A stretch of 64,000 nt of DNA from Panopea generosa (lineage: Eukaryota; Mollusca; Bivalvia; Adapedonta; Hiatellidae): contig CM055903.1 in assembly GCA_029582155.1 (NCBI GenBank), positions 36,560,353 through 36,624,352 on the forward strand. The letters are read 5' to 3'. How positions within the stretch are numbered: the first letter of the stretch is position 1; each line of letters begins with the position of its first letter. Both the position numbers and the translations under genes were made by a program. The notes under the pieces were generated by a model that did no database searches, had not been told where the DNA came from, and saw only the letters and a list, made by a program, of their open reading frames with translations. Below, piece by piece: positions 1,494 to 48,100 of the stretch.

Positions 1494-2190
1494 GAAGAAA
1501 ACTGATTTATACATAACACATAGTATTGCAGGATAATTGCTGAAGAAGTACTGATCTGTACATAACACATAGTGTTACAGGATAATTACTGAAGAAATAC
1601 TGATCTGTACATAACACATAGTGTTACAGGATAATTGCTGAAGAAGTACTGATCTGTACATAACACATAGTAGTACAGGATAATTGTTGAAGAAGTACTG
1701 ATCTGTACATAACACATAGTATTACAGGATAATTGCTGAAGAAGTACTGATCTGTACATTACACATAGTATTGCAGGATAATTGTTGAAGAAGTACTGAT
1801 CTGTACATTACACATATTATTGCAGGATAATTGTTGAAGAAGCTCTGACCTGTACATAACACATAGTATGCAAGATAATTGCTGAAGAAGTACTGATCTG
1901 TACATTACACATAGTATTGCAGGATAATTGTTGAAGAAGAACTGATTTATACATAACACATAGTATTACAGGATACTTGCTGAAGAAGTACTGATCTGTA
2001 CATAACACATAGTATTGCAGGATAATTGCTGAAGAAGTACTGATCTGTACATAACACATAGTATTGCAGGATAATTGCTGAAGAAGTACTGATCTGTACA
2101 TAACACATAGTATTGCAGGATAATTGCTGAAGAAGTACTGATCTGTACATAACACATAGTATTGCAGGATAATTGCTGAAGAAGTACTTA
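1494..2190. repeat. 49-bp tandem array
   Basis: About 14 units with a 49-bp period; each contains CTGATCTGTACATAACACAT and AGGATAATTGCTGAAGAA. Point differences are scattered and the last four units are almost identical. Short minus-strand ORFs are by-products of the repeat. Confidence 0.95.
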
Positions 2191-2749
2191 AGTTTTTGCA
2201 GCAACTGTCACCTTATGTTTTATGGGTAAATTATTTCTTTGTATTTTTTATGAAAAGTTTGTCTCAAAATATGTCTGATTAAATAAATAACGGCAACATA
2301 TTATAAAGTATTACATATATTTCATTAAGTTTTTTTTTATTTATTTAAAATGAAAGAAATGTTTTGATGAATGGTCTGTCCACACTCAGCTTTGATTTTA
2401 AATATGTGATAGCCTCGTGGTAGAATCACTTTATTCAAATCAGCTCTGTCATTAATAGATGTCTTTATATTATATAAATGAAAATTATAACTTATCAATG
2501 GGAATCCTGGATACCATATCTACTTACTTTGAGAAAGAAACAAGTAACTGACTGTATTAAAAGTAAAATATCCTGTAATAAATTTCAAGGTTTTGGCCAT
2601 CATTTTGGAAATTTGTAATGAGTATTATTTGGTGAATGTGACGTATGCTGAAAACTGTGTACCCGTATGTATTTTGTTATAAAAAAAAAAGTCTGAACGT
2701 AATGTAGATATACATGTATTTTTGTTCCCACAATATGTATAGTGTGTTT

Positions 2750-3362
2750 GTAAACATAACCTGGGATATTGTTGGTCTATCTACATAACCTGGGATACTG
2801 TTGGTCTATCTACATAACCCGGGATCCTGTTGGTCTATCTCCATGACCTGGGATACTGTTGGTCTATCTCCATAACCTGGGATACTGTTGGTCTATCTCC
2901 ATAACCTTGGATACTGTTGGTCTATCTACATAACCTGGGATACTGTTGGTCTATCTCCATAACCTGGGATACTGTTGGTCCATCTCCATAACCTGGGATA
3001 CTGTTGGTCCATCTCCATAACCTGGGATCCTGTTGGTTTATCTCCATAACCTGGGATCCTGTTGGTCTATCTCCATAACCTGGGATACTGTTGGTCTATC
3101 TTCATAACCTTGGATACTGTTGGTCTATCTCCATAACCTGGGATACTGTTGGTCCATCTCCATAACCTGGGATACTGTTGGTCTATCTCCATAACCTGGG
3201 ATCCTGTTGGTCTATCTCCATAACCTGGGATACTGTTGGTCTATCTACATAACCTGGGATACTGTTGATCTATCTCCATAACCTGGGATCCTGTTGGTCA
3301 ATCTCCATAACCTGGGATACTGTTTGTCTATCTCCATAACCTGGGATATTGTTGGTCTATTG
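2750..3362. repeat. 29-bp tandem array
   Basis: About 21 units of a 29-bp motif containing ATAACCTGGGATACTGTTGG. Variation is concentrated at two sites (ATACTG/ATCCTG and CTATCTC/CTATCTA). The flanks are AT-rich. Confidence 0.95.
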
Positions 3363-3364
3363 TC

Positions 3365-4560
3365 ATAAAAAAATTACAATAATTATACTCTAGCTTTTTT
3401 TCAGGCTGCAGAATTTAATTTTGGTTCATTGTTATAAAATGTGTTCTTAAGAAATGTTACAATTGCCAAATAAATCTTTAACAATGTTAAAATATTTTGA
3501 AAATTTAACTTTTTTAAATCTTTTGTCATGCCCAAATAATATTGTTTGATAGTTTTCTGCTAATATGTTGTTATTTTGCTGCGTTTGAAGCACTGTAATG
3601 GCCACTGTAATAATTGTTGTCTTGAATTGTGGAAATGGATCATTTATCTGAAATGTTTTTTTTACAGATTAAGTAGTTTTCCAGAATATAGACTGGTATT
3701 TAAGGTGTGATTTTTAGACAGATACCAGTGTTTCTATATGATATAGGTGTAATATTCTGTGGTTAATCATAATGCTATATACAGCTTGATGTCTTGTGTC
3801 ACACTATTACCCAGATACCAATGCTGTACTGTTTTATGTAAAATGATAGTTTATAGGCATATTTATATAAATGAATATTATTTGAAATGATACAGGGGTG
3901 ATGTGTTACTTATTTTTACTGTGGCAAAAGGTAATTTACATATACTGTTAACAGATATAGAATTTTAACATAGCTCAAATATATTTTTGAACAAGAACTT
4001 ATTTTTATCATTGCTTAAAGCTGGTATTGATAGAAGTAATGTACACATTTGAAAAACATTTGGTATAATCAGAAAATGTAACCAAGAAGATGAAATTGTA
4101 TGAGATAAGATTTTTATATTTTAGATTATTTGATGTAATGTTTTTAATTTGATTAAACGTTGTTTCAACATAATGAGAATAATACATATCAGTTTTTTTT
4201 ACAATTAAGCAGGCCTTAATTGGAAAGGAGTGCAAATATAAAACTTAAAAATGAAGAAATGCACTTTAATTGTTTGCAATTGAATTGCTGATATATTAGT
4301 TTATATAAAGATGATTTACATAACAATAGCCCTTTATTATTAGAATAAAACTAGATATATATAAAATGACTCATTAGGCCCCAATTATTATATAAGTCAT
4401 GGACATCTATATACCGAAACGGGTTATAATTACTATATGGACCAAGTTTTATGCTTATACAGGCCTTAATTGATGTGTAAAATGTTTTAGCTTAAAGAAA
4501 GTTGTGGTGAACTCAACATAGTCATCACAATGGAGATTCAGTGTATGTGGGTGATTCTAT
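3365..4560. other. AT-rich DNA without a recognised feature
   Basis: Short AT-rich ORFs only; no conserved motif or repeat recognised. Confidence 0.4.
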
Positions 4561-17150: not shown

Positions 17151-17156
17151 TTTATT
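17151..17156 (-). promoter_or_regulatory. Candidate poly(A) signal
   Basis: AATAAA on the minus strand, about 190 bp past the stop codon of the HtrL-like gene. Another AATAAA overlaps the stop codon itself but would leave almost no 3' UTR. This is motif-only evidence. Confidence 0.35.
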
Positions 17157-17341: not shown

Positions 17342-18262
17342 TTATTTTGCACCATGGCCGGCGATCATGCTCTCGCCAAGGTAAAACCAACTGACTCCTC
17401 CCGGTGACTTGTACGTTTGTAGCTGTATCTTTGGTTTAATTACTTGCCGCCCCTCATCGGAAAACATGGCAAACGTGACTTGTTGATCTGTATTCATCAA
17501 GTTCTGTGACAGGAAGTAGTTCACTGCCCTTTTAAACTGTCGCTCATACTGTACTATTAGCTCTCTGCATCCTAAAAATAGCCCACCACCTACCCATACA
17601 ATGTTCTTCTTGAAAATATCGTCTGGTTTCGATGACATTGGGCGTCTCCACACCAAGTTCATTGCAAGTCGAGAATCATCCATAGCACGTGGTGTTGTTA
17701 AACGGAAGTGCTTGAATGCATCCACCTTATCACGAAAATAGCCGACATCAAGCCAAGATATGTATTTAGTTTTAAAGAAGTTTGCTTTTGCCGCTCTAGC
17801 CGTAACATCATATTTCGCATGTTGTGCGCATGCGTATGCTGGTACAACGGTATTTGGGTAGTGCTTAGGATACCGGGCTGTAGAATATATTTCTGCAATT
17901 CTTTTTTCGTTTTGAAAGGCCCAAGACGAGGTTCTCTCGATCATAATTATCTTGGTTTTATTCAAAATTTCGCTTCTTAACAATTGCATTAAATCCCAGA
18001 ATTGTAAAGAGTCGGTATAAACAACAAGGGGGTTGTCCAGATATTGAAACACGTTTGCCCATTTTAGGTAGGTGGCCGTCGCGAAGTAGGTGTTGCCATA
18101 TCCCTTTTTGAATCTGCCCAAGTCAAAGTAAGCCGATACAATAGTTATCTCTTCTGAAAGATGTTCTTCTGAGCAGTCCACCAGATGTTCATTTGGGTTT
18201 CTATCAATTTGTATAGATCCAGGTTGACCGTGAAGGATAGGATGGTCATCGTTGTTAAAACT
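17342..18262 (-). CDS. Terminal exon of a HtrL/YibB-domain protein
   Basis: This exon encodes 306 residues and a TAA stop. It carries a whole HtrL/YibB-type domain, a family named from a bacterial protein of unknown function whose E. coli gene lies near LPS-core genes. With exon 1 added, the domain covers about residues 123-385. Visible landmarks are ITIVSAYFDLGRF at its start (residue 123), WLDVGYFRD (254-262), VGGGLFLG (308-315) and TDQQ (342-345). There is an N-glycosylation sequon NKT near residue 185. The exon start is set by a TTTCAG acceptor whose last base is at 18263; the first full codon is AGT, so phase is 0. There is no in-frame ATG upstream of the domain within the exon, so an earlier exon is required. 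Domain identity is by pattern recognition. Enzymatic activity (a glycosyltransferase-like role) is inference only. Confidence 0.9.
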   Translation of the reverse strand, partial: SFNNDDHPILHGQPGSIQIDRNPNEHLVDCSEEHLSEEITIVSAYFDLGRFKKGYGNTYFATATYLKWANVFQYLDNPLVVYTDSLQFWDLMQLLRSEILNKTKIIMIERTSSWAFQNEKRIAEIYSTARYPKHYPNTVVPAYACAQHAKYDVTARAAKANFFKTKYISWLDVGYFRDKVDAFKHFRLTTPRAMDDSRLAMNLVWRRPMSSKPDDIFKKNIVWVGGGLFLGCRELIVQYERQFKRAVNYFLSQNLMNTDQQVTFAMFSDEGRQVIKPKIQLQTYKSPGGVSWFYLGESMIAGHGAK

Positions 18263-18570
18263 CTGAAAGATTTATTGATATAGTAAGAAGGCTATACATG
18301 ATTATGACAAGGGCATGAAGTATCCTTACCAACTGAATTAATATAGATTTTTTTGAAAAAAAAAATTGTTAATAATAGGTAATAAAGCATTTAATAAAAT
18401 CGAAAACCAGCTGCTGATTTTACCTCATATGTGAAGGTAAAGGTCATTGCAAAGGTTAGTGCAAAGGTCATTGCATGCAAATTGAAAAATAAAGTAAACA
18501 TAGCTTATAATTTTATTTCTGATATTCCTATTGATAAATGACTTTCACTACTCGGTTAAGTTATACTTTA

Positions 18571-18962
18571 TTGTATATTAACCCGAATAAGCTATGGTAC
18601 AACTTGTTAGTTGGCTGACCATTTATAAACGACCACCATGCTTTTCTTTAATTGTATTATAACCCGAATAAGTTATGGTACAACTTGTTAGTTGACTGAC
18701 CATTTATAAACGACCACCACGATTTTCTGTTTAATTGTATTATAACCTGAATGAGCTATGGTACAAATTGTTAGTTAGCTGACCATTTATAAATGGCCAC
18801 CACGCTTTTCTCTTTAATTGTATTATAACCTAAATAAGCAATGGTACAAATTGTTAGTTGGCTGACCATTAAAAAACGACCACCATGTATTTCTCTTAAA
18901 TTGTATTATAACCTGAAGAAGCTACGGCACAACTTGTTAGTTGACTGACCATCTATAAACGA
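18571..18962. repeat. 82-bp tandem array in the intron
   Basis: Five units of 81-83 bp containing TTGTATTATAACCyGAATAA, GGTACAAcTTGTTAGTTGrC and AAACGACCACCA. It lies 300 bp from the terminal exon. Confidence 0.9.
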
Positions 18963-20502
18963 CGTCTACATTCTACTTCTCGCTAGCTTATATATTTAAA
19001 TAGACATGCTGCAATGTTGGTATCAGTTATGCTCATATTCACATACTAACTTAAATTTTGAAACTATGATCACATAACCACAGTATAAAAATAAATCTCG
19101 ATGTGTTACCACTAGTATCTGAATCTCCAAGTGTTACCACTAGTACATAAATACCCAAGTGTTACCATGGTACATGAATACCCAAGTGCTACTAATGGTA
19201 TATGAATACTATGTGTTTCCACTGGTATCTGAATCTTCAAGTGTTACCACTAGTATATGAATCTCCAAGCGTTACCACTAGTATCTGAATCTCCAAGTGT
19301 TACCACTAGTATCTGAATCTCCAAGTGTTTCCACTGGTATCTGAATCTCAAAGTGTTACCACTAGTATCTGAATCTCCAAGTGTTACCACTCACTAGTAC
19401 ATGAATACCCAAGTGTTTCCATGGTACATGAATGCCCATGTGTTACTAATGGTATATGAATACCTATGTGTTTCCACTGGTATCTGAATTTTCAAGTGCT
19501 ACCACTAGTATATGAATCTCCAAGTGTTACCACTAGTATCTGAATCTCTAAGTGTTTCAACTAGTGTCTGAATCTCAAAGTGTTACCATTAGTATATGAG
19601 TAACCAAATGTTACCACTAGTATCTGAATACCCAAGTGTTACCACTAGTATATGAATACCCAAGTTATACCACTAGTATCTGAATCTCCAAGTGTTATCA
19701 CTAGTATATGAATACCCAAGTGTTTCCACTAGTATCTGAATCTCCAGATGTTACCACTAGTATCTGAATACCCAAGTCTTACCACTAGTATATAAATACC
19801 CAAGTGATACCACTAGTATATGAGTACCCAAGTGTAACAACTAGTATCTGAATCTCCACGTATTGCCACTAGTGTATGAATACCCAAGTGTTACCACTAG
19901 TATCTAAATCTCCAAGTGTTACCACTAGTATCTGAATCTCAAAGTGTTACCACTAGTATCTGAATTTCCACGTATTGCCACTAGTGTATGAATACCCAAG
20001 TGTTACCACTAGTATCTAAATCTCCAAGTGTTACCACTAGTATCTGAATCTCAAAGTGTTACCACTAGTATCTGAATCTCCAAGTGTTATCACTAGTATC
20101 TGCATCTCGAAGTTTTACCACTAGTATCTGAATCCCCAAGTGTTACCAGTAGTATCTGAATCTCCAAATGTTATCACAAGTATCTGAATTTCCAAGTGTT
20201 ACCACTAGTATATAAATCTTCAAATATTACCCCTAGTATCTGGATCTCCAAGTGTTACAACTTGTATTAGAATATCCAAGTGTTACCACAAGTATCTGAA
20301 TCTCTGAGTGTTACCACTAGTATCTGAAACTCCAAGTGTTCCCACTGGTATCTGAATCTCCAAGTGTTACCACTAGTATCTGAATCACCAAGTGCTACCA
20401 CTAGTACATGAATACCCAAGTGTTACCACTAGTATATGAATACCCATGTGTTACCACTAGTATATGAATCTCCAAGTGTTACCACCAGTATATGAATCTT
20501 CA

Positions 20503-20615
20503 TACCTTTGAAGTTCTCAGCATCCTCCAAAGAATTGTGGAGTCATGCTACATGCACAAGTAGTTTTGAAATAGGTGTAATCGTTACAATACAATTTGAT
20601 ATTTTCTTAAAATCT
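20503..20615. repeat. Array-flank repeat, copy 1
   Basis: Contains TTTGAAGTTCTCAGCAT, GGAGTCATGCTACATG and ACAATTTGATATTTTCTT. The same segment recurs at 28098-28222 and 28609-28735. Confidence 0.85.
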
Positions 20616-20790
20616 GAATCTCCAAGTGTTACCACTAGTATCTGAATCTGCAAGTGTTACCACTAGTATCTAAATCTCCAAGTGTTACCTCTATTATCTG
20701 AATCTACAAGTGGTACCACTAGTATTTGAATCTCCAAGTGATATTACTATTATATGAATATCCAAGTGTTACCACTAGTATCTGAATCTC

Positions 20791-21109
20791 CAGGGGCGTA
20801 GCTTCGCTGAAAACGATGTTTAGACACAGGTCCGGGGGCATGCTCCTCCGAAAAAAAATGTAGGTGAGCTTTGACATAAATTTAATATTATTTTAGAGGC
20901 CTTGCTGTCCTTATTATTTACTTTGAATTCACTGTTTTATAACCAAATAAATGTAATGTTTTAAGGTTTGTTCATTTCAAAAAAGGGATAAATGAAGAAG
21001 CATAGGGGTCAAATTTTATTGCATTTTTTCGCATATTTATTATTTTCGATTTTCTGACAAAAAAAGTGTAGACACGTGTCTACAGAGCCTATAGGAAGCT
21101 ACGCTACTG
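20791..21109. mobile_element. hAT-like MITE inserted in the satellite
   Basis: A 319-bp segment starting CAGGGGCGTAGCTTC and ending GAAGCTACGCTACTG, imperfect inverted termini with the CAG...CTG ends common in hAT elements. Inner inverted pairs TTTAGACAC and GTGTCTAC are also seen. ATCTC is repeated at both junctions, but the satellite context makes the duplication length (5 or 8 bp) uncertain. Confidence 0.65.
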
Positions 21110-24100
21110 ATCTCCAGGTGTTACCACTAGTATCTGAATCTCCAAGTGTTACCACTAGTATCTGAATTTCCAAGTGTTACCACTAGTATCTGAATCTCCG
21201 AATGTTACCACTAGTATCTGAATCTCCAAGTGTTATCACAAGTAACTGAACATCCGAGTGTTACCACTAGTATCTGAATATCCGAGTGTTACCACTAGTG
21301 TCTGAATCTTCAAGTGTTACCATTAGTATCTGAACTTCCAAGTGTTACCACTAGTATATGAATATCCAAGTATTACCACTAGTATCTGAATCTCCAAGTG
21401 TTACCACTAGTATATGAGTACCAAAGTTTTACAACCAGTATATGAATACCTAAGTGTTTTCACTAGTATATGAATACCAAAGTGTTACCACTAGTATATG
21501 AATACCAAAGTGTTACCACCAGTATATGAATACTAAAGTGTTACCACTAGTATATGAATACCAAAGTGTTACTACCAGTATATGAATACCAAAGTGTTAC
21601 CACTAGTAAATGAATACCTAAGTGTTACCACTAGTATATGATTAACAAGGTGTTACCACTAGTATATGAATACCCAAGTCTTACCACTAATATCTGAATC
21701 ACCAAGTGTTACCATTAGTATCTGTAACCCGAAGTTTTACCATCAGTATCCGAATACCCAAGTGTTATCACAAGTATCTGAATCTCCAAGTGTTATCACT
21801 AGTATATGAATCTCCAAGCGTTACCACAAGTATCTGAATCTCCAAGCGTTACCACTAGTATCTGAATCTCCAAGTGTTACCACTAGTATCTGAATGTCCA
21901 AGTGTTACTATTAGTATCTGAATCTCCAAGTGTTACTTTTAGTATCTGAATCTTTAAGTATTTACCACTAATATAACAATACCCAAGTCTTACCACTAAT
22001 ATCTGAATCACCAAGTGTTACAACCAGTATCTGAATATCCAAGTGTTATCACAAGTATCTGAATCTCCAAGTGTAACCATTAGTATCTGAATCTCCAAGT
22101 GTTATCACTAGTATCTGAATCTCCAAATGTTACCACTAGTATCTGAATGTCCAAGTGTGACCACTAGTATATGAATCTCCAAATGTTACCCCTAGTATCT
22201 GAATCCCCAAGTGTTATCACTAGTATCTGAATCTCCAAGTTAAACACTTGTATCTGTAACACCAAGTGTTACCATCAGTATCCGAATCCCCAAGTGTTAT
22301 CACAAGTATCTGAATCTCCAAGTGTTACCACTAGTATCTGAATGTCCAAGTGTTACCACTAATATCTGAATCACCAAGAGTTAACATTAGTATCTGAATC
22401 TCCAAGTGTTATCACTAGTATCCAAATCTCCAAGTGTTACCACTAGTATCTGAATGTCCAAGTGTGACCACTAGTATATGAATCTCCAAATGTTACCCCT
22501 AGTATCTGAATCCCCAAGTGTTATCACTAGTATCTGAATCACCAATTACTACCACAAGTATCTGAATGTCCAAATGTGATCACTAGTATATGAATCTCCA
22601 AATGTTACCCCTAGTATCTGAATCTCCAAGTCTTACCACTAGTATATGAATACTCAAGTTATACCAGTTGTATCTGAATCTCCAAGTCTTACCACTAGTA
22701 TCTGAATTTCCAAATGTTCCCACTGTTATCTGAATCTCCAAGTGTTATCACAAGTATAATGAATCTCCAAGTATTACCACTAGTATCTGAACCTCCAAGT
22801 GATATCACAAGTATATGAATCTCCAAGTGTTACCACTAGTATCTGAATCTCCAAGCGTTACCACTAGTATCTGAATCTCCAAGTGTTACCACTAGTATCT
22901 GAATCTCCAAGTGATATCACAAGTATATGAATCTCCAAGTGTTACCACTAGTATCTGAATCTCCAAGCGTTACCACTAGTATCTGAATCTCCAAGTGTTA
23001 CCACTAGTATCTGAATGCCCAAGTGTTATCATTAATATCTGAATCTCCAAGTTTTACCACTAGTATATTAATACCCAAGTCTTACCACTAATATCTGAAT
23101 CACCAAGTCTTACCACTGGTATCTGTATACCAAAGTGTTACTACCAGTATCTGATTCTCCAAGTGCTATCACTAGTATCAGAATCTCCAAGTGTCACCAC
23201 TATCATCTGAATCTCCAAGTGTTATCACAAGTACATGAATCTCCAAATGTTACCACTAGTATCTGAATCTCCAAGTGTTACCACTAGTATCTGAATCTCC
23301 AAGGGTAACCATTTGTATCTTAATTTCAAAGTGTTACCACTAGTATCTGAATCTCAAAGTGTTATCACTAGTATCTGAATATCCAAGTGTAACAACTAGT
23401 ATATAAATATCCAAGTGTTATAACTAGTTTCTGAATGTCCAAGTGTAACCACTAGTATCTGAATCTCCAAGTGTTACCACTAGTATCTGAGTGTCCAAGG
23501 GTTACCACTAGTATCTTAATTTCCAAGTGTTACCACTAGTATCTGAATCTCCAAGTGTTATCACTAGTATCTGAATCTCCATCTGTTACCACTAGTATCT
23601 GAATGTCCAAGGGTTACCACTAGTATATGAATCTCCAAATTTTACCACTAGTATCTGAATCTCCAAGTGTTACCTCTAGTATATGAATACCCAAGTTATA
23701 CCAGTAGTATCTGGGTCTCCAAATGTTACCACTAGTATCTGAATCTCTTAGTACTACCAGTAATATCTGAATCTCCAAGTGTTCCAACTGCTGTCTGAAT
23801 CTCCAAGTGTTACAACTAGTATCTGAATCTCCAAGTGTTATTACTAGTATCGGAATGTCTAAGTGTAACCATTAGTATCTAAATCTCCAAGTGTTACTAT
23901 TAGTATCTGAATCTTTAAGTATTTACCACTAATATAACAAAACCCAAGTCTTACCACTAATATCTGAATCACCAAGTGTTACCATCAGTATCTGAATCTC
24001 CAAGTGTTATCACAAGTATCTGAATCTCCAAGTGTTACCATTAGTATCTGAATCTCCAAGTGTTATCACTAGTATTCGAATCTCAAAGTGTTTCCACTAG

Positions 24101-27100
24101 TATCTGAATGTCGAAGTGTGACCACTAGTATATGAATCTCCAAATGTTACCACTAGTATCTGAATCCCCAAGTGTTACCACTAGTATCTGAATCTCCAAG
24201 TGTTACCACTAGTATCTGAATGTCCAAGTGTGATCACTAGTATATGAATCACCAAATGTTACCCCTAGTATCTGAATCTCCAAGTGTTACCACTAGTATA
24301 TGAATACCCAAGTTACACCAGTTGTACCTGAATCTCCAAGTGTTACCACTAGTATCTGAATTTTCAAGTGTAACCACTGTTATCTGAATCTCCAAGTGTG
24401 ACCATTACTATCTTAATCTCCAAGTGTTATCACAAGTATAATGAATCTCCAAGTGTTACCACTAGTATCTGAATCTCCAAGTGATATCACAAGTATATGA
24501 ATCTCCAAGTGTTATCACTATTATCTGAATCTCCAAGCGTTACCACTAGTATCTGAATGTTCAAGTGTTACCATTAGTATCTGAATCTCCAAGTTTTACC
24601 ACTAGTATATGAATACCCAAGTCTTACCACTAGTATCTGAATCACCAAGTGTTACCACTAGTATCTGTATACCAAAGTGTGTTACTACCAGTATCTGATT
24701 CTCCAAGTGCTATCACTAGTATCTGAATCTCCAAGTGTCACCACTATCATATGAATCTCCAAGTGTTATCACTAGTACCTGAATCACCAAGTGTTACCAC
24801 AAGTATCTGAATCTCTAAGTGTTACCACTAGTATCTGAATGTCCACTTGGGTAACCACTAGTATCTTAATTTCAAAGTGTTACCACTAGTATCTGAATCT
24901 CCAAGTGTTACCTCTAGTATATGAATGCCCAAGTTATACCAGTAGTATCTGGGTCTTCAAATGTCACCACTAGTATCTGAATCTCTAAGTACTACTACTA
25001 GTATGTGAATCTCCAAGTGTTCCCACTGCTATCTGAATCTCCAAGCGTTACCACTAGTATCTGAATCTCCAAGTGTTACCACTAGTATCTGAATGTCCAA
25101 GTGTTACCACTAGTATCTGAATCTCCTAGTGTTACTATTAGTATCTGAATCTCCAAGTGTTATCACTAGTATCCGAATCTCCAAGTGTTACCACTAGTAT
25201 CTGAATCTCCAAGTGTTACCACTAGTATATGAATGTCCAAGTGTTATCACTAGTATCTAAATGTCCAAGTGTTATCACTAGTATCTGAATCTCCAAGTGT
25301 TACCACTAGTATCTGAATGTCGAAGTGTGATCACTAGTATATGAATCTCCAAATGTTACCCCTAGTATCTGAATTTCCAAGTGTTCCTACTGTTATCTGA
25401 ATCTCCAAGTGTTACCACTACTATCTGAATCTCCAAGTGTTATCACAAGTATAATGAATCTCCAAGTGTTATCGCTAGTATCCGAATCTCCAAGTGATAT
25501 CACAAGTATAGGAATCTCAAAGTGTCACAACTAGTATCTGAATCTCCAAGCGTTACGACTAGTATCTGAATCTCCAAGTGTTACCACTAGTATCTGAATG
25601 TCCAAGTGTTACCATTAGTATCTGAATCTCCAAGTTTTACCACTAGTATATGAATACCCAAGTCTTACCACTAATATCTGAATCACCAAGTGTTACCACT
25701 AGTATCTGTTTACCAAAGTGTTACTACTAGTATCTGATTCTCCAAGTGCTATCACTAGTATCTGAATCTCCAAGTGTCACCACTATCATCTGAATCTCCA
25801 AGTGATATCGCTAGTACCTGAATCTCCAAGTGATACCACTAGTATCTGAATCTCCAAGTGTTACCACTATTATATGATTGTCCAAGGATAACCACTGGTA
25901 TCTTAATTTCAAAGTGTTACCACTAGTATCTGAATCTCCAAGTGTTATCACTAGTATCTGAATCTCCAAGTGTTACCACTAGTATCTGAATGTCCAATGG
26001 TTACCACTAGTATATAAATCTCCAAATGTTACCACTAGTATCTGAATCTCCAAGTGTTACCTCTAGTATATGAATACCCAAGTAATACCAGTATTATCTG
26101 GGTCTCCAAATGTTACCAGTAGTATCTGCATCTCTAAATACTACCACTCATATCTGAATCTCTAAGTTTTCCCACTGCTATCTGAATCTCCAAGCATTAA
26201 CACTTGTATCTGAATCTCAAAGTGTTACCACTAGTATCTGAATGTCCAAGTGTTACCACTAGTATCTGAATCTCCAAGTGTTACTATAAGTATCTGAATC
26301 TTTAAGTATTTACCACTAATATAACAATACCCAAGTCTTACCACTAATATCTGAATCACCAAGTGTTACCACCAGAATCTGAATCTCCAAGTGTTATCAC
26401 AAGTATCTGAATCTCAGTGTTATCACTAGTATATAAATCTCCAAGAGTTACCACTAGTATCTGAATCTCCAAGCGTTACCACTAGTATCTGAATCTTCAA
26501 GTGTTACCAATAGTATCTGAATGTCCAAGTGTTACCAGTAGTATCTGAATCTCCAAGTGTTACTTTTAGTATCTGAATCTTTAAGTATTTACCACTAATT
26601 TAACAATACCCAAATCTTACCACTAATATCTGAATCACCAAGTGTTACCACCAGTATCTGAATCTCCAAGTGTTATCACAAGTATCTGAATCTACAAGTG
26701 TTACCATTAGTATCTGAATCTCCAAGTGTTATCACTAGTATCCGAATCTCCAAGAGTTATCACTGGTATCCGAATCTCAAAGTGTTACCACTAGTATCTG
26801 AATCTCCAAGCGTTACCACTAGTATCTGAATCTCCAAGTGTTACCACTAGTATCTTAATGTCCAAATGCTACCATTAGTATCTGAATCTCCAAGTTTTAC
26901 CACTAGTATATGAATACCCAAGTGTTACCACTAGTATCTGAATCTCCAAGTGTTATCACTAGTAACTGAATGTCCAAGTGTTACCATTAGTATCTGAATC
27001 TCCAAGTTTTACCACTAGTATATGAATACCCAAGTCTTACCACTAATATCTGAATCACCAAGTGTTACCATTAGTATCTGTATACCAATGTGTTACTACC

Positions 27101-28097
27101 AGTATCTGATTCTCCAAGTGCTATCACTATTATCTGAATATCCAAGTGTCACCACCATCATCTGAATCTCCAAGTGTTATCACTAGTACCTGAATCTCCA
27201 AGTGATACCACTAGTATCTGAATCTCCAAGTGTTACCACTAGTATCTGAATGTCCAAGGGTTACCACTGGTATCTGAATTTCCAAGTGTTACAACTAGTA
27301 TCTGAATCTCCAAGTGTTATCACTAGTATCTGAATATCCAAGTGTTACCACTAGTATATGAATGTCCAAGTGTTATCACTAGTATCTGAATGTCCAAGTG
27401 TTACCACTAGTATCTGAATCTCCAAGTGTTACCACTAGTATCTGAATGTCCAAGGGTTACCACTGGTATCTTAATTTCCAAGTGTTACCATTAGTATCTG
27501 AATCTCCAAGTGTTATCACTAGTATCTGAATATCCAAGTGTTACCACTAGTATATGAATGTCCAAGTGTTATCACTATTATCTGAATGTCCAAGTGTTAC
27601 CACTTGTATATGAATCTCCAAGTGTTACCACTAGTATCTGAATGTCCAAGGGTTACCACTAGTATCTTCTTTTCCAAGTGTTACCACTAGTATCTTAATC
27701 TCCAAGTGTTATCACTAGTATCTGAATCTCCAAGTGTTACCACTAGTATCTGAATGTCCAAGGGTTACCACTAGTATATGAATCACCAAATGTTACCACT
27801 ACTATCTGAATCCACAGGTGTTACCTCTAGTATACGAATACTCAAGTTATACCAGTAGTATCTGGGTCTCCAAATGTTACCACTAGTATCTGAATCTCTA
27901 CGTTCGTACCACTAGTATCTGAATCTCCAAGTGTTCACAGTAGTATCTGAATCTTAAAGTGTTACCACTAGTATCTGAATCTTCAAGTGTTACCACTTGT
28001 ACATGCATACCCAAGAGTTACCACTACTATATGAATACCCATGTGTTACATGTACCACTAGTATATGAATCTCCAAGTGTTTACACTAGAATCTGAA

Positions 28098-28222
28098 TAT
28101 TTATACCTTCATACCTATTCAGCATTTTTAAAAAAATGTGGAATCATGCTACATGTACATGTAGTTCTGAAATAGGTGTAAAAATCGTTACAATACAATT
28201 TGATATTTTCTTCAAATCTGAA
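28098..28222. repeat. Array-flank repeat, copy 2
   Basis: A diverged copy of the 28609-28735 flank, followed again by 28-bp units. Confidence 0.85.
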
Positions 28223-28608
28223 ACTCCAAGTGTTACCACTAGTATATGAATACCTAAGTATTACCACTTGTATTTGAATTTCCAAGTGTTATCAGTATTA
28301 TCTGAATCTCCAAGTGTTACCACTAGTATCTGAATGTCCAAGGGTTACCACTAGTATCTTAATTTCCAAGTGTTACCAATAGTATCTGTATCTCCAAGTG
28401 TTACCACTAGTATCTGAATCTCCAAGAGTTACCACTAGTATATCAATATCCCAGTGTTACCACTAGTTTATGAATCTCCAAGTGTTACCACTAGTATATG
28501 AATCTCCCAGTGTTACCATTAGTATATGAATCTCCAAGTGTTGCCACTAATATATGAATCTCCCATTGTTACCACTAGTATATGAATATTTAAGTGTTAC
28601 CACTAGTA

Positions 28609-28735
28609 TCTGAATCCTCATTCCTTTGAAGTTCTCAGCATTTTCAAAAAACTTGTGGAGTCATGCTACATGAACATGTAGTTTTGAAATTGGTGTGAAA
28701 TTCGTTACAATACAATTTGATATTTTCTTAAAATT
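28609..28735. repeat. Array-flank repeat, copy 3 (true array edge)
   Basis: Marks the right edge of the satellite; unique AT-rich sequence follows. The same edge sequence was copied into the array twice. Confidence 0.8.
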
Positions 28736-29310
28736 GTTTTAGTAAACTAATTAAATTAAAATATTTTAGCACTCGTCATAAAACGGCATAAATCTGCAAA
28801 AAGGTAGCAGATAAAACAGCTGCCAGAAATGTATATCGTGTCCCCAAATAAAATCGAAATGAAGTGTCTGAACGTTTGCGACTCTTTTAAACAGAAAGAT
28901 AGATTTTTGCCATGACTTTATTTATAGCTAAACATCAGTTCAGGATAAATGATGGACGACAACATGAACTGCGATGTAAAATTTCAACCATATGATATAT
29001 TCAGCTTTACAGGACCAAGCCTTTCTGTGATAAAAAATAACAACCATAAACGGACTTATCCTGCATATAAGTTATAACTTGAAGTCACAGTACGATTAAC
29101 AGCCAGCTGCCACCTTTTCCATGAAACTATGTGTGAGACGGTCGCTGGATCAGGGTCCAATTAATTTGTTACAAATAAAGACATAATTATATAAAGTAAG
29201 CAATGGTGAAACCTGTACATAATTCCAAACTCGCAGCTGGCACAGTAGGAGAAACCATTACTATATGTCAGAATACAAAAAAGACGACAGAATAGTTTAA
29301 TTCATTAGCT
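28736..29310. other. Unassigned intron stretch
   Basis: No repeat or coding pattern was recognised; one of the few non-repetitive parts of the inferred intron. Confidence 0.4.
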
Positions 29311-29313
29311 AAT

Positions 29314-29655
29314 TGAGGTTTTAATGCGTACAATCATATTATAGAGTATATGTCTACAGCATATACTCGGACAATTCCATGTTCACTCTTGTTGCACAAA
29401 ACAACAGATACAAATACAAATTCTATCCAAATATTAAAACTGTCGCATCTTAGAACCTGCTGCATGAGTTACAATGGTATCATTCTTACCATCACTTATT
29501 TGGCACCCTGGAATTACACAGTGGTTAGTAACTAACACTAATATTGTAAATGACAACATTTTCTTGTATAAAATGTACACGAGCCACATTCGGAGGGTTC
29601 CTACCCCTCTGCAGAGATCGACAGTATTCTTACTGGAATATAAGGAGACAGCTGG
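29314..29655 (-). mobile_element. Dimeric retroposon X, copy 3 (degraded)
   Basis: Retains CATTCGGAGGrTTCCTACCC and CTCTGCAGAGATCGACAGT (plus-strand view), the CTGGAATTACACAG segment and a weak GAGGTTTTAATGCGTAC match to the 3' end. It is clearly older than copies 1 and 2. No target duplication was found. Confidence 0.75.
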
Positions 29656-29786
29656 GCCAGTACAGTTGAACGATACCAACGTATATAGTCACATTTTACA
29701 AACATATAGTTGTAAGTTTAACTTACACATTTTTAAAGAGAGGTAAGGTGTATTATATGTGGGATGCTGCTGAAGTTGACTGTTTA

Positions 29787-29905
29787 TGCCAGAGGTTGCG
29801 GGTTCAATCCCAGGACCGGTCAAGTACTGGTTCTACCCAGGAAACAGAATTGACGGGAAATACCTGACCTTAGTCAATAAATCAGTATAAAGTAAATGTA
29901 TACAT
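29787..29905 (+). mobile_element. SINE family E fragment
   Basis: The B box GCGGGTTCAATCCCAGG is followed shortly by AAGTACTGGTTCTACCCAGG, which matches the 3' part of the 9046-9193 copy. The middle is deleted. Confidence 0.5.
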
Positions 29906-30089
29906 TATTATTGCAGCTAATATGATGTTACCGAAATCTCCTTAGGGAAACATATTCTTGCAAATTAGCTGGTTTATACTGTATCGATGGAAACGCAGAA
30001 TTGAGAATAACATGTTTGAACTTACTGCTGAACATTACTTTAAAGTTTTAGTGATAGGAAGCTTATTCACTGTATGTATTTATTATTTA

Positions 30090-33055
30090 TGTTAATCAGA
30101 AACAGTAGATATCCGTTACTTTAGATAGTTATATACACGTATAGTGTTAATCAGAAACAGTAGATATCCGTTATTTTAGATAGTTACATGTATATACGGG
30201 TATAGTGTCAGTTAGGAACAGTAGATATCCGTTATTTTAGATAGTATTATACGCGAATAGTGTAAATCAGAAACAGTAGATATCCGTTACTTAAGATAGT
30301 TATAAACGCATATAGTGTTAGTCAGAAAGAGTAGATATCCTTTACTTTAGATAGTTATATACGCGTATAGTGTTAGTACGAAACAGTAAATATCCGTTAC
30401 TTTAGATAGTTATATAAACTTATAGTGTTAATCACAAACAGTAGATATCCGTTACTTTAGATAGTTATATACACTTATAGTGTTAATTACAAGCAGTAGA
30501 TATCCGTTACTTTAGATAGTTATAAACACGTAAAGTGTCAGTCGGAAGGGTATATATCCGTTACTTTAAATAGTTATATACACTTAGAGTGCTAGTAATT
30601 AACAGTAAATATCCGTTACTTTAGATAGTTATATACACTTATAGTGCTAGTCATTAACAGAAAATATCCGTTACTTTAGATAGTTATATATATACGTATA
30701 GTGTTAGTCAGAAACAGAAAATATCCGTTACTTTAGATAGTCATATTTTTTTTCATGGTTAGTTGCTCGTTGGCTTAACACTGAGGGACCTTCATAAATA
30801 GAGCCTTAGGTAGTTAGTCCAGTATATAACAACCTTATCAAACATGGGGTCAGAGACGGTTGTTATATACTGGACTAACTACCTAAGGCTCTATATGGTT
30901 ATATAAGTTTACGTAAACACTTATAGTGTTAATTACAAGCAGTAAATATCCATTACTTTAGATAGTTATATACACTTATAGTGTTAATTACAAGCAGTAG
31001 ATATCCGTTACTTTAGATAGTTATAAACACGTAAAGTGTCAGTCGGAAGGGTATATATCCGTTACTTTAAATAGTTATATACACGTATAGTGCTAGTCAT
31101 TAACAGTAAATATCCGTTACTTTAGATAGTTATATACACGTATAGTGTTAATCACAAACAGTAGATATCCGTTACTTTAGATAGTTATATATATACGTAT
31201 AGTGTTAGTCAGAAACAGAAAATATCCGTTACTTTAGACAGTTACATACACATATAGTGTTATTCCGTAACAATAAATATCCGTTACTTTAGATAGTTAT
31301 ATACACGTATAGTGTCAGTCAGAAGGTAGATATCCGTTACTTTAGATAGTAATATACACATATAGTGTCAGTCAGAAATAGTAGATATCCGTTACTTTAG
31401 ATAGTTATATACACGTATAGTGTCAGTCAGAAACAGTAAATCTGTTACTTTATACAGTTATATACACGTATAGTGTTAATTACAAACAGTAGATATCCGT
31501 TACTTTTGATTGTTATATACACGTAAAATGTTAGTCAGAAACAGTAAAACTGTTACTTTAGACAGTTATATACACGTATAGTGTTGATCAGAAACAGTAG
31601 ATGTGCGTTACTTTAGATAGTTATATACACGTATAGTGTTAATTACAAACAGTAGATTTCCGTTACTATACACGTATAGTGTTAATCACAAACAGTATAT
31701 ATCCGTTACTTAAGGTAGTTATATACACGTATAGTGTTGATCAGAAACAGTAAATATCCATTACTTTAGATAGTTATATACACGTATAGTGTCAGTCAGA
31801 AACAGTAAATATCCGTTACTTAAGGTAGTTATATACACGTATAGTGTTGATCAGAAACAGTAAATATCCGTTACTTTAGATAGTTATATACACGTATAGT
31901 GTCAGTCAGAAGGTAGATATCCGTTATTTTAGATAGTTATATACACATTTAGTGTCAGTCAGAAATAGTAAATATCCGTTACTTTAGATAGTTATATACA
32001 CGTATAGTGTCAGTCAGAAGGTAGATATCCGTTACTTTAGACAGTTATATACACGTAAAGTGTTACTCAGAAACAGTAGATATCCGTTACATTAGACAGT
32101 AATATACACGTATAGTGTTAGTCAGAAACAGTAAATCTGTTACTTTAGATAGTTATATGCACGTATATTGTTGATCAGAAACAGTAGATGTGCGTTACTT
32201 TATACAGTTATATACACGTATAGTGTTTATCACAAACAGTAGATATCCGTTACTTTTGATTGTTATATACACGTATAGTGTTATTCAGAAACAGTAAAAC
32301 TGTTACTTTAGACAGTTATATACACGTATAGTGTTGATCAGAAACAGTAGATGTGCGTTACTTTAGATAGTTATATACACGTATAGTGTTAGTCAGAAAC
32401 AGTAGATATCCATTACTTAAGATAGTTATATACACGTATAGTGTTAGTCAGAAACAATAGATATCCGTTACTTTATATAGTTATTTAAACTTATAGTTTC
32501 AGTCAGAAACAGTAGATATCCTTTACTTTAGATATATAAACGTATATAGTGTTAATCAGAAAGAGTAAATATCTGATACTTTAGAGGTTTATATACACGT
32601 ATAGTGTTAGTCAGAAACAGTAGCTATCCGTTATTTTAGATAGTTATACATATTGTGTTAATCAGAAACAATAGATATCCGTTACTTTAGACAGTTACAT
32701 GTATAAACGGGTATAGTGTCAATTAGAAACAGTAGATATTCGTTATTTAAGATAGTATTATACGCGAATAATGTCAATCAGAAACAGTAGATATCCGTTA
32801 CTTTAGATAGTTTTATACTTGTATAGTGTTAGTCATAAACAGTAAATAGCGGTTACTTAAGATAGTTATGTACACGTTTAGTTGTGATCAGAAACAGTAG
32901 ATATCCGTTACTTTAGATAGTTATATACTCGTATAGTGTTAGTCATAAACAGTAAATAGCGGTTACTTAAGATAGTTATGTACACGTTTAGTTATGATCA
33001 GAAACAGTAGATATCCGTTACTTTAGATAGTTATATACACGTTAAGTGTTAATTG
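30090..33055. repeat. 55-bp satellite, about 50 units
   Basis: The unit contains AGATATCCGTTACTTTAGAT, AGTTATATACACGTATAGTG and CAGAAACAG. A block of about 110 bp (TATAGTGTTAATTACAAGCAG onward) occurs near 30478 and again near 30975, a 495-bp higher-order step. It is interrupted at about 30745-30905 by a segment carrying a perfect hairpin. Confidence 0.95.
30798..30894. repeat. Perfect 37-bp-arm hairpin inside the 55-bp satellite
   Basis: Arms 30798-30834 and 30858-30894 are exact inverted copies separated by 23 bp. Each arm has CCTTAGGTAGTTAGTCCAG or its complement. The sequence is unrelated to the surrounding satellite. Confidence 0.93.
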
Positions 33056-33299
33056 AAAACGCTAGGAGTATTTACTTTGGACTAATATTTAGTCATAAGA
33101 ATACTTCGCATTCTCTATACGACAGCCGTTTATATTTGTGATCAATACAATATAAGGAAACCAGTGATGACAATGGTTTTATAAATACTTGTAAGTTTAG
33201 GTACCAAATTTACATATGATCGTTGACATTGCATAACTTTTGAATTTACCCTGGTGTTTTTTGTTTGTATGGGGGTTTACATAGCGCATCTTATCATCA

Positions 33300-33475
33300 T
33301 TTCTGGGATCAGCGTGGTGGTTAACCAGTAGTTGATATACTTTATCGCTGCACATTAGCGGCTACTTCCCCATATGGTCAGATGTGGGGGACCCATTGGT
33401 CGGATGGGGTTTCGAACCCCTTGACTGACAGCCGGCGTCATTGCATAAGTGTTTAACTTGTCCCGGCTGTTCAGA
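33300..33475 (-). mobile_element. Possible tRNA-derived SINE (family F)
   Basis: The minus strand has GCCGGGACAAGTTAAACAC and a B-box-like GGGGTTCGAAACCCC in tRNA-like spacing. Only one copy was seen in the window, so the assignment is weak. Confidence 0.4.
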
Positions 33476-33487
33476 TGTTCAAGTTTT

Positions 33488-33572
<85 letters not shown>

Positions 33573-33660
33573 CCACCTATACCATCATTATTATCATTAT
33601 CATTATCATCATCACCAACAACAACTTCATCATCATCAATATCTTCATCATTATATTAAT
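33488..33660. repeat. (ATC)n microsatellite
   Basis: About 29 perfect ATC units to 33573, then an imperfect ATC/ATT tail. It sits about 100-270 bp inside the donor end of the inferred intron. Confidence 0.96.
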
Positions 33661-33756
33661 ATTACCTTAACATCGTAAGAACAGTCAACATAATCGCTTG
33701 TACAGCAGCAAAATCAAAATCTCAGAGTAAATCTGCAAACATTTGTGAGTACGTAC

Positions 33757-34008
33757 CTGATTTGATGTCAGAAGCTGCAGACTTTTGGCAACAAGCTTTG
33801 TAGTTTTGAGAAAACTGATTTTGAGTACAAAAACAATTAAAAAACTGAGAAGTACCAAAACGAGAAATCTAAAAAATCTCTTTTTTGCGTTGAGACACAT
33901 TATGAAGAAAACATCAGAATAACTCCAAATGATACAGAGACAGTGTCCACAGACGGTGATATATGTGGCCAAACTCATAATCAAATTAACGACCGTGTCA
34001 CTGTCCAT
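33757..34008 (-). CDS. First coding exon: membrane anchor of the HtrL/YibB-domain protein
   Basis: These 84 codons end at a consensus donor, CAG|GTACGT, at 33757/33756, in phase 0, matching the phase of the acceptor at 18263. The first ATG has A at -3 and G at +4. Residues 42-44 are KKR, followed by a strong hydrophobic segment at about 45-64 and a basic stem, the layout of a type II signal anchor. An internal Met at residue 37 would give a shorter, more typical cytosolic tail, so the start is uncertain; residues 10-36 are also rather hydrophobic. A further donor-like AAAAG|GTAAGT lies upstream at 34091/34090, with a possible acceptor at 34044. That would be a 47-bp intron, very short, or it marks an alternative first exon. 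Linking this exon to the terminal exon is inference from strand, phase and topology; small extra exons between them are not excluded. Confidence 0.68.
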
Positions 34009-34985
34009 GATTAATATTTATTGCCAACGCTTAGTGTTACAGCCTGTATCAATAATTTATTTTGCCTATGATATTTCATGACTAACTTACCTTTTACGTT
34101 CTTTGATAATGTGTTGGAGGACAAAAACGACGTCCAGTGCCAGTCTCTGTCAGAGTTATCGTTCTTAATCTCTACCAGTCGCCAGCCACTCTTGTCAAGG
34201 TCTCAAATAACAACATTTCTTAGAAGCAACAGAACAACGACGGAGTGGTTAGATTAGTTTGGTCTTATCTATATGTAAATTTTGGGCGATAATACTTGAA
34301 AGTTTAATCAGTTCATTCGATAGAGATATATTACTTGGTTAAATGTTAATATTTCATATATCAAAAGTATCATCCCGGAAATATATAAAAGACGAAGGAG
34401 GTGATACAGGAGAACTACTTTTAAGTTTGGAAGAACTAGTTCTTAACTGTGCACCTGCACATACTTGGATATATGAAAAGTTAATCTTATATGTCAGAGT
34501 TATAAACATGTAATTAAATCACTGCCAAAGCTTAATTGTTTGACTGTGATTTCCGGAGACGGAAGTGTTCAAGTCATAAATTGAGTGTACATAATTTGTG
34601 ACGGGATTTTTTGTCCGTTCAGAGATTTCTGTACGTTCAGCACGTTGTAAGTTTTAGAAAAAAAATGAATTCAGTCATAGCTTTTCTTAACCCCTAACCC
34701 GGGTAGGCTGGTTCCCCAGCATCATTATACATACATACAGTACAAACAGGGATCCAGCCATAATGCATGTTGTCGTGTTATTGGTGCTTGGGTAACAAAC
34801 GAACTGGGAGAACATCACCTCTCAGGCTACCTTTGATTATTTTAACATTTTTATTTCTAATATATACATAGGTACGAGTACATATATGACAAGTGGGAAA
34901 GCATTAAAGTGATTTTAATTTATTTTCAAACCAGGAAAAGAATATTTCAAAATATTATGTTGATTGTTATTAATTTTTAATATAA
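34009..34985. promoter_or_regulatory. Upstream region of the HtrL-like gene
   Basis: This should hold the 5' UTR and promoter. The splice-donor-like AAAAG|GTAAGT (minus strand) is at 34091/34090. A plus-strand TATA-like ATATATAAAA lies at 34381-34390, which would serve a transcript in the other direction. No clear minus-strand TATA box is seen. Confidence 0.3.
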
Positions 34986-36208: not shown

Positions 36209-37478
36209 GTTGGCCATATACTACTATATTGGTCAGCTACCTGCTACAGTATTGGTCAACTACACGCTACAGTATTGATCAGCTACACGCTACAGTATTG
36301 GTCAGCTACATGGTACAGTGTTGGTCAGCTTAACGCTACTGTATTGGTCAGTTACACGCTACAGTATTTGTCAGCTACACGCTACAGTATTGGTCAGCTA
36401 CACTGTACAGTACTGGTCAGCTACAAGCTACAGTATTTGTCAGCTACACGCTACAGTATTGATCAGCTACACGCTACAGTATTGGTCAGCTACATGGTAC
36501 AGTGTTGGTCAGCTTAACGCTACTGTATTGGTCAGTTACACGCTACAGTATTTGTCAGCTACACGCTACAGTATTGGTCAGCTACACTGTACAGTACTGG
36601 TCAGCTACAAGCTACAGTATTTGTCAGCTACACGCTACAGAATTGGTCAGCTACATGGTACAGTATTGATCAGCTATATGGTACAGTACTGGTCAACTTT
36701 ATACTATAATATTGGTCAGCTATATATTATAGTACTGGTCAGCTTCATGGTACAGCATTTGTCAGCTATATACTATAGTTTTTGTCAGGTACATGGTACA
36801 GTATTGGTCAGCTACATGGTACAGTATTGGTCAACTTTATACTATAATATTGGTCAGCTATATATTATAGTACTGGTCAGCTTCATGGTACAGTATTGGT
36901 CAGCTATATACTATAGTATTGGTCAGCTACATGGTACAGTATTGGACAGCTATATACTATAGAATTGGTCACCTATATACTTTAGTATTTGGTCAGCTTT
37001 ATGTTATAGTATTGGTCAGCTATATACTAAAGTATTGGTCAGCTACATGATACAGTATTGGTCAGCTTTATACTATAGTATTGGTCAGCTACATAGTACA
37101 GTATTGGTCAGCTTTATACTATAGTATTTATCAGCTATATACTATAGTATTGGCCAGTTATATCCTATAGTATTGGTCAGCTACATGATACAGTATTGGT
37201 CAGCTACATGGTACAGTATCGGTCAGCTTTATACTATAGTATTAATCAGCTATATACTATAGTATTGGTCAGTTATATACTATAGTATTGGTCAGCTACA
37301 GTAGTGGTCAGCTATATACTATAGTATTGATCAGCTATATACTAAAGTATTTGTCAGCCACACGCTACAGTAGGGGTCAGCTATATACTATAGTATTGGT
37401 CAGCTACATGGTACAGTATTGGTCAGCTTTATACTATATCATTGGTCAGCTATATACTATAGTATTGGTCAGCTACCA
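36209..37478. repeat. 23-bp tandem array with 184-bp higher-order unit
   Basis: Units contain CTACAGTATTGGTCAGCTAC. The left part (36275-36640) repeats as two near-identical blocks 184 bp apart, that is eight units. To the right the units shift to TATACTATAGTATTGGTCAGC. Since 3 x 23 is 69, long false ORFs result. Confidence 0.95.
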
Positions 37479-45159: not shown

Positions 45160-48100
45160 AGATTCGAAGACATCAGATGCAAAGTTGAAATGAGCTGTTT
45201 GGGGAGCATTGGTCATCTGCTTGGGAGTTCAGAGATACACGCATTTTTTGGAGATCATTTATGCCGATACAACTGAAGGGCATATGCTAATAAGTACTTA
45301 CAATCGCAAAGAAGCAGCTCTTAGCAGATTTACATGTATGTAATCAAAGGTTTAAAATACAACCTTTGAATTTCGAAACACAGACAATACATTGGCACTG
45401 TCAAAAGAGTATTTGAGACATTTCAAGGAGTCACTCAACTGAGGTAATATAGGAGACATTAACCCCGAAGAACGCCAATGTTAATAATCTGTGGAAAAAC
45501 ACACTGTAAACGTGTTAATTAACTTAGAATGCGAAACACACACTGATATAAAAGTTGCAAATTGAAGCATAAACCATTCGCGAAACAAGAAACCAGATGC
45601 CTAAAAAATGATGGTTAATAGAAGAACGAAACTATTATGGATGCAATATTAAGAGATGTTTGAACTTTTTGAGACTTTGAACATCAAACTCAGACGTAAA
45701 GGTTATTCGGCTCTTTGTCTGCACACTTATTCAGAAATGTTACCATATTTTGCTATATCAAGGCAAACACCTTATGTGAAACAATGGTATATGTACTTGT
45801 ACGATATTATAGAGCAAATGTTAATTCAGGGTACTGGAACAACCAGTGGTCTCATTTGTAGGGACAATAGTATGACTGAAATACAAGGAATAGTTAGCCT
45901 GTTACCTACACCGACATGTTCTGGGTAAATCAGTGTATGCAAAAGTTATGTATACATCTAGATAGCATCTCAAACAGAATAGCAAAACAATACAGTCACA
46001 GGATGAAATAAATTGCAAGCTTTGTCAAATTATAAAATCTAGTCAGTGACGATCCATTGCTAAAAAGTATTGATGTTATGGAAGATAAAACTGTTAATAT
46101 TGATAACTCCAGGGATACTGGTAGTGATATTATTGATAACTCCAGGGATACTGGTAGTGATAATATTGATAACTCCAGTGATACGGGTAGTGATAGTATT
46201 GTTAACTCCAGGGAAACTGGTAGTGATAATATTGATAACTCCAGGGATACTGGTAGTGATATTATTGATAACTCCAGGGATACTGGTAGTGATAATATTG
46301 ATAACTCCAGGGATAATGGTAGTGATATTATTGATAACTCCAGAGATACTGGTAGTGATAATATTGATAACTCCAGGGATACTGGTAGTGATATTATTGA
46401 TAACTCCAGGGATACTGGAAGTGATATTATTGATAACTCCAGGGAAACTGGTAGTGATATTATTGATAACTCCAGGGATACTGGTAGTGATATTATTGAT
46501 AATTCCAGGGATACTAGTAGTGATAATATTGGTAATTCCATGGATACTGGTAGTGATAATATTGATAACTCCAGGGAAACTGGTAATGATAATATTGATA
46601 ACTCCAGGGATACTGGTAGAGATAATATTGATAACTCCAGGGAAACTGGTAGTGATATTATTGATAACTCAAAGGATACTGGTAGTGATATTATTGATAA
46701 CTCCAAGGGAACTGGTAGTGATATTATTGATAACTCCAGGGATACTGGTAGAGATATTATTGATAACTCCAGGGAAACTGGTAGTGATATTATTGATAAC
46801 TCAAGGGATACTGGTAGTGATATTATTGATAACTCCAGGGGAACTGGTAGTGATATTATTGATAACTCCAGGGATACTGGTAGTGATATTATTGATAACT
46901 CCAGTGATACTAGTAGTGATAATATTGATAACTCCAGGGCTACTGGTAGTGATAATATTGATAACTCCAGGGTTACTGGTAGTTATATTATTGATAACTC
47001 CAGGGGAACTGGTAGTGATATTATTGATAACTCCAGGGATACTGGTAGTGATATTATTGATAACTCCAGTGATACTAGTAGTGATAATATTGATAACTCC
47101 AGGGCTACTGGTAGTGATAATATTGATAACTCCAGGGATACTGGTAGTGATATTATTATATCCATGGAAGAAAGAACACCATTGGGTATTCTTTTAAAAA
47201 GAAAATAAGACTGCTCTACTGAGTTTTATAGTTTTGATAAATTATAAAATAATACGTCGATATTCAGCTTTGTTTTTCAGCGGTGGAATTCTGCTGCTGC
47301 AGTTACGATGACCAGAGAGGAACTGACTTCATTGTTCACTTATCAATTATATACCTACATCGGTTCTCTTTGACTCAAATTGCTTGCTTGGGGGAAGTAA
47401 AAAAAAAAGTAGCTGAACCTGTAGTAATAAAAATTATGTTGTTGCAGAACCACAAACTATGGTGTATGTCACTGACGGAGGCTTTTTAACACAGCAACTT
47501 CCCAGGCCAAGAGATTATACATATACCTGGATACTTTTTTATAATAAGACTTGTACGTGCGATATAGTGTCGGAAGTATGGAAAGGGATCAGTGATCGTA
47601 TTTGACTGGATATTCAGAGGACCCATCTACGAAAGATACTGCATACCTTAGATATAATGCTAGACATATAAACACAAAAAAAGATGCGTTCCTTGCTTAC
47701 ACAAAAATAAGCAAGGCTTAATAAACATGCTAATGGCCGCTTAGATGCAAATGATTTTAAATCACGACAAGCAATAAGAGATACGACTGTCGTAATCATA
47801 AATACATCTGTGGAACATGCAGTTAGTCAATCAAAGTTTTTAATGGTGACGATACGAACATTGCTCCTTATCTATTACGCCAACATGAACTCATATGAAA
47901 CAAACTTTAAACCTGGACCAATAATATGAGTTTAAAGCACAAAGTTCACAAAAATAAAGCTAGGCAAAGAAATATGCAAACATATATTATCCATAAATGC
48001 TTTTCTTTGATGTGGCACAACCTCTCGTCGGTTTGGTACAGGAACAGGATTATCACTTCAGAAGTTTTAAATAAATCAGAAATTCCGTAAATGCGCTTTT

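Follow-up and report, generated by a model that had tools for sequence, protein, structure and literature searches.

A 64,000-nucleotide stretch of the genome of the bivalve Panopea generosa (contig CM055903.1; hereafter the window) probably encodes, on its minus strand, a gene of two coding exons whose product is a type II membrane protein of the Golgi or endoplasmic reticulum (ER), namely an HtrL_YibB glycosyltransferase of the GT-A fold. Exon 1 would encode the cytosolic tail, short and basic, and a single membrane anchor, with Met37 as the probable start, a stem of about 55 residues would span the exon junction, and exon 2 would supply the lumenal HtrL_YibB domain with its predicted GT-A fold. 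Such a domain most likely takes its sugar from a nucleotide sugar and attaches it to a glycan, probably by a retaining mechanism. The rival explanations weighed below partly overlap and are not all mutually exclusive.

Exon 2 matches the Pfam family HtrL_YibB (PF09612) with an E value of 7.9e-17 and 62.2 bits against a gathering cut-off of 24.1, the match covering profile positions 2-240 of 267 and exon-2 residues 38-263 (17474-18151, minus strand). This bears out an earlier note on the same DNA, which had read an HtrL/YibB domain in the terminal exon. No other Pfam family matches at E of at most 1, and the GT6 and GT8 sequence families are absent at that level. The score against the YibB equivalog TIGR02192 is 63.7 bits, below its cut-off of 264.9; judged by these scores, the window protein and YibB are of the same family and are different proteins.

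Gene structure and start codon

Terminal coding exon 2 (17342-18262, minus strand; 306 codons plus the stop, 921 nucleotides (nt)) opens at the phase-0 acceptor TTTCAG|AGT. Its frame carries a stop just upstream of the acceptor and its first in-frame Met lies already inside the domain, in agreement with the earlier claim that this exon lacks a start of its own. Coding exon 1 (33757-34008, minus strand; 84 codons and 252 nt when counted from Met1) ends at the phase-0 donor CAG|GTACGT at 33757. The junction is thus in phase 0 on both sides and the two exons sum to 390 codons from Met1; the coordinates, phases and lengths given in the earlier note are correct throughout. We infer that exon 1 is spliced to exon 2.

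Support for this join comes from further copies of the gene. A search of the window's own assembly (1.474 Gb, 39 contigs) with PF09612 yields four intact loci, namely the window gene, one on contig C2 and two on contig C19, and none of 14 control genomes gives a match. The three other intact copies are 50-53% identical to the window gene, and each has an uninterrupted one-exon domain with an apparent phase-0 acceptor, judged by eye, shortly before it. The 50 kb upstream of each of these copies was searched for frames that open with ATG and run into a donor in phase 0. Each intact copy has an upstream phase-0 candidate exon that encodes a short, basic tail followed by a single hydrophobic segment, at a distance of 5.5-21.8 kb (15.5 kb in the window gene): 44 codons at 5.5 kb for the C2 copy, and 29 codons at 18.8 kb and 21.8 kb for the two C19 copies. 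Three copies that combine the same domain exon with their own phase-0 anchor exon support the joining of exon 1 to exon 2, and the two-exon model proposed earlier gains from their like architecture.

The two C19 genes (32338141 and 32405821) are near-identical, convergent and about 67 kb apart, and therefore count as one observation. Their adjoining intron is 95.3% identical over 595 aligned bases, and the ratio of nonsynonymous to synonymous rates (dN/dS) of their exon 2 is a modest 0.35 (11 synonymous and 15 nonsynonymous changes). The C19 copy with the 21.8-kb exon has an identical second 87-nt first-exon candidate 31.7 kb away, the two lying 9.9 kb apart (C19, 32406400-32456399), which suggests a recent duplication of the first exon. 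A protein search adds a broken fifth copy (C9:9087589-9088306), which is split between two frames, contains stops and directly adjoins a long stretch of N.

The same copies bear on the start codon. Counted from Met37 (33757-33900, minus strand; 48 codons), a start to which the first exons of the copies point with their 44 and 29 codons, the protein of 354 residues would consist of a 12-residue tail with the KKR motif, one predicted anchor (residues 49-67 from Met1; 33808-33864, minus strand; mean hydropathy 2.91), the stem and the domain. Counted from Met1, a borderline hydrophobic stretch precedes the anchor (residues 9-27, mean hydropathy 1.98), and the spliced protein would then cross the membrane twice or place its domain in another compartment. 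The context of Met1, with A at -3 and G at +4, speaks for that start, as does the hydropathy of the stretch itself; the copies, however, begin 9-15 residues before their anchors. Because the short-tailed type II layout from Met37 resembles that of the copies, Met37 is by analogy the likelier start, and we regard translation from Met1 as unlikely. The type II reading of the earlier note accordingly fares well in composition, which matches the short basic tail and single anchor of a type II Golgi/ER protein, and less well in its 390-residue start from Met1, which is doubtful; the start codon itself is uncertain. Exon 2 contains a single N-x-S/T site, at residue 101. Separately, about 80 nt upstream of Met1 there is a consensus-like donor, AAG|GTAAGT (34085-34093, minus strand; last exon base 34091), which could point to a first exon without coding sequence or to the use of an alternative promoter.

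Predicted fold and conserved residues

A structural model of exon 2 built from 47 relatives reaches a predicted local distance difference test (pLDDT) value of 80.8 and displays a GT-A glycosyltransferase fold, compared with a pLDDT of only 31.4 for a single-sequence AlphaFold2 prediction. The nearest folds are those of GT6 enzymes, LARGE1 and UGGT, which we take to represent families GT6, GT8 and GT24 and to be retaining enzymes; because these nearest folds are retaining, retention is the probable stereochemistry. The earlier note had rightly left the reaction unassigned; judged by its predicted fold, the domain would be a GT-A glycosyltransferase. In the model, a D-x-G at residues 172-174 follows a predicted strand (167-171). 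It belongs to the sequence W-L-D-V-G (exon-2 residues 170-174; 17741-17755, minus strand), of which W, D and G are invariant in the family, and this W-x-D-x-G probably occupies the site of the GT-A DxD motif. A further conserved pair, D-Q (exon-2 residues 259-260; 17483-17488, minus strand), lies near the C-terminal end of the domain.

Several results weigh against the fold assignment. The fold is a predicted one, with Foldseek template modelling (TM) scores of about 0.4, and an exact DxD motif is absent from exon 2, which has D-x-G instead. An hhalign comparison of the family profile with four GT8 enzymes gives a probability of 3%, indicating no relation, and a profile search of the sequences of the Protein Data Bank (PDB) retrieves no glycosyltransferase; over the two sequence-based searches of the PDB the best chains are unrelated ones with weak E values of 0.74 and 0.1. 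Given this lack of sequence relation to GT8 or to PDB glycosyltransferases, the GT-A call draws on the predicted fold.

Conservation was read from an alignment of 48 rows, comprising 12 of 33 viral-contig loci, 35 of 46 genome loci and the window. Eight positions are identical in all 48 rows (A44, R50, Y65, Y143, K150, W170, D172 and G174), and at position 43 the 47 other rows have Thr and the window copy Ser; the window copy thereby keeps eight of the nine residues on which all 47 other rows agree. D47 is shared by 46 of those 47 rows.

A GT-A fold that has lost transferase activity, such as a lectin-like or regulatory relative, would also accommodate part of these data. The replacement of D-x-D by D-x-G suits it, as does the Ser at position 43, and three of the four intact Panopea copies lack both D47 and R50. 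The window copy, on the other hand, retains D47 and R50, and all four intact copies keep Y65, Y143, K150, W170, D172, G174 and Q260. Furthermore, the bacterial homologues are located among transferase genes: around 11 bacterial loci, 18 of the 20 scanned nearby open reading frames (at least 150 codons) match glycan-assembly families, including glycosyltransferases, capsule synthesis proteins, an O-antigen ligase, a polysaccharide flippase family, a Wzt-type transporter and a pyruvyl transferase, and E. coli htrL adjoins rfaD in the waa region. We consider an inactive domain improbable, and favor an enzymatically active, probably retaining transferase that would reside in the Golgi or ER.

More tentatively, HtrL_YibB may constitute an unrecognised GT-A family, with W-x-D-x-G in place of D-x-D, that is common to bacterial surface-glycan loci, phages and animals. 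In Panopea it would amount to a small set of type II enzymes of the Golgi that build a glycan linkage not yet charted, and among these the window copy would be nearest to the active site of the bacterial proteins. We put this wider proposal forward as plausible, with distinctly less confidence than the gene model itself.

Candidate upstream exons competing with exon 1

The putative intron (18263-33756, minus strand; 15,494 nt) contains no minus-strand frame of at least 120 codons, and two tandem-repeat arrays account for 12,487 of its 15,494 nt (19094-28616, unit 28; 30090-33053, unit 55). Donor sites were scored with a generic matrix. The exon 1 donor scores 10.6, a value reached by only two of the 3789 GT/GC sites upstream on the same strand of the window, itself included, and it is the sole site scoring that high within the 15.5 kb upstream of exon 2. 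The earlier note had called exon 1 the nearest candidate, which is inexact because five weaker ATG frames lie closer to exon 2 (18424-29705; donor at least 4, at least 15 codons), with donor scores of 4.1-7.2.

A combined criterion was then applied, requiring a donor of at least 7.5, a 19-residue hydropathy of at least 2.2, a net charge of at least +2 before the hydrophobic segment, 20-120 codons from ATG, and phase 0. Exon 1 is its only match in the 45.7 kb of the window upstream of exon 2, where phases 1 and 2 yield none on either strand; the upstream stretch of the C2 copy gives one match and those of the C19 copies one and two. Across all four upstream stretches (195 kb) there are no matches on the antisense strand and none in phases 1 or 2, and shuffles of these stretches give one match in 2.93 Mb.

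Other observations count against the join. First, the thresholds of the combined criterion were chosen post hoc, after the candidates had been seen. Second, a looser ranking places other frames first in two of the stretches: a signal-peptide-like frame 41 kb upstream in the C2 stretch, and a frame 40 kb upstream with a stronger donor and weaker hydropathy in the stretch of one C19 copy (C19a). Third, exon 1 of the C19 pair differs by one synonymous and three nonsynonymous changes, which is uninformative and gives no sign of purifying selection. Finally, the exon 1 protein matches only itself in the genome, the next match having an E value of 2.2. As exon 1 has no detectable homologue, support for the join comes from architecture, not homology.

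The most specific competitor is the frame at 18424-18501, 161 nt upstream of exon 2, which could serve as a signal peptide and yield a secreted protein. It runs for 26 codons from its ATG to a phase-0 end at GAG|GTAAAA, and the nematode relative HTRL-1 is described as secreted (in the passage of PMC8989417 that deals with it). Its donor nevertheless scores 5.9 against 10.6 for exon 1, its hydropathy is 1.46, it has no basic residue save one His, and it overlaps a 12-bp tandem repeat at 18439-18475, while each of the three other intact copies has a basic, anchor-bearing first-exon candidate. To this frame, or to any other alternative first exon, we give slightly less credence than to the two alternatives above, and we retain the join of exon 1 to exon 2.

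Among the remaining features of the window, an AATAAA at 17151-17156 (minus strand), 186 nt beyond the last base of the stop codon, is a possible polyadenylation signal. Other long minisatellite arrays lie at 59734-62435, 53475-56558, 46098-47157, 36227-37476, 2755-3360 and 1489-2188, and the long open frames within several of the window's arrays look like repeat artefacts and not genes. Neither Rfam, at its gathering threshold, nor a tRNA scan gives a match in the window.

Relatives and known systems

Exon 2 alone finds no match in close-relative scans of the genome and viral-contig collections, none among plasmids and one weak match among phages, and a PHROGs search gives no convincing match. 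An alignment-based search retrieves 26 viral-contig loci and 46 bacterial genome loci. In a tree of 54 rows the four Panopea copies form one clade (support 100/100) on a stem of 3.0 changes per site, without a near bacterial or viral neighbour. The long stem and the lack of such a neighbour argue against recent transfer, and recent horizontal transfer is rejected on this tree. That the gene is a recent bacterial acquisition, a contaminant or a decaying copy is in our view highly improbable, since the bacterial naming of the Pfam family and the broken copy on C9 are set against that clade and against four intact copies that share a phase-0 acceptor position on three large contigs (70.8, 100.3 and 42.2 Mb).

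Four viral records deserve mention in their own right. The Campylobacter phage records MG065686.1 and MG065691.1 hold a protein that is 100% identical, over its full length, to HtrL of E. coli K-12; E. coli DNA seems to have entered these assemblies. On viral contig L015 (316.8 kb) an HtrL_YibB match opens a 551-residue frame (2001-3653), the remaining half or so of which has no other Pfam match at E of at most 0.01. Synechococcus phage B23 (L002, 5995-8538) has an HtrL-like gene; beside it are a gene that resembles GT4 enzymes weakly, at scores below the cut-off, and one annotated as GT25, and the three may form a small cassette for glycans.

The domain has appeared in animal data before. In the passages concerned, C. 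elegans HTRL-1 (T11F9.12) is a 736-residue, nematode-specific secreted protein with a saposin-related pattern and PF09612, and the HtrL_YibB domain is said to be otherwise bacterial only (PMC8989417); this latter statement, as worded there, is contradicted by the Panopea genome, which extends the domain beyond bacteria and nematodes. A table entry lists the land snail protein Candidula CAG5121511.1 with HtrL_YibB (PMC11206429), and a coral domain table carries an entry named HtrL_YibB (PMC6214176). Because nematode and snail members are already recorded, the window protein adds one more member to a family known before. In the passages found, two Acinetobacter papers include the family in their lists and give it neither a clan nor a function (PMC4172580, PMC10327509), and those retrieved from the open-access literature on HtrL and animals assign HtrL_YibB neither a fold nor a reaction. 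What the present work would add is the predicted fold assignment and the gene model, so that a domain of no assigned function becomes a candidate glycosyltransferase open to testing, for which a gene structure, a predicted fold and a short list of residues for mutation are in hand.

Compared with known systems, the window protein shares its domain with E. coli HtrL (b3618; PF09612/TIGR02192) over most of the model, with invariant residues in common; the two are about 20% identical, and HtrL starts at the domain and has no N-terminal anchor. HTRL-1 is likewise an animal PF09612 protein but is described as secreted (PMC8989417, in the passage cited above), and the Candidula and coral entries name the domain in passages that give no gene structure, anchor or fold. 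The GT8 xylosyltransferase domain of LARGE1 and the GT6 alpha-1,3-galactosyl/N-acetylgalactosaminyl (GalNAc) transferases are near to the window protein in predicted fold and show no detectable sequence relation to it, and where they carry D-x-D the window protein probably carries D-x-G.

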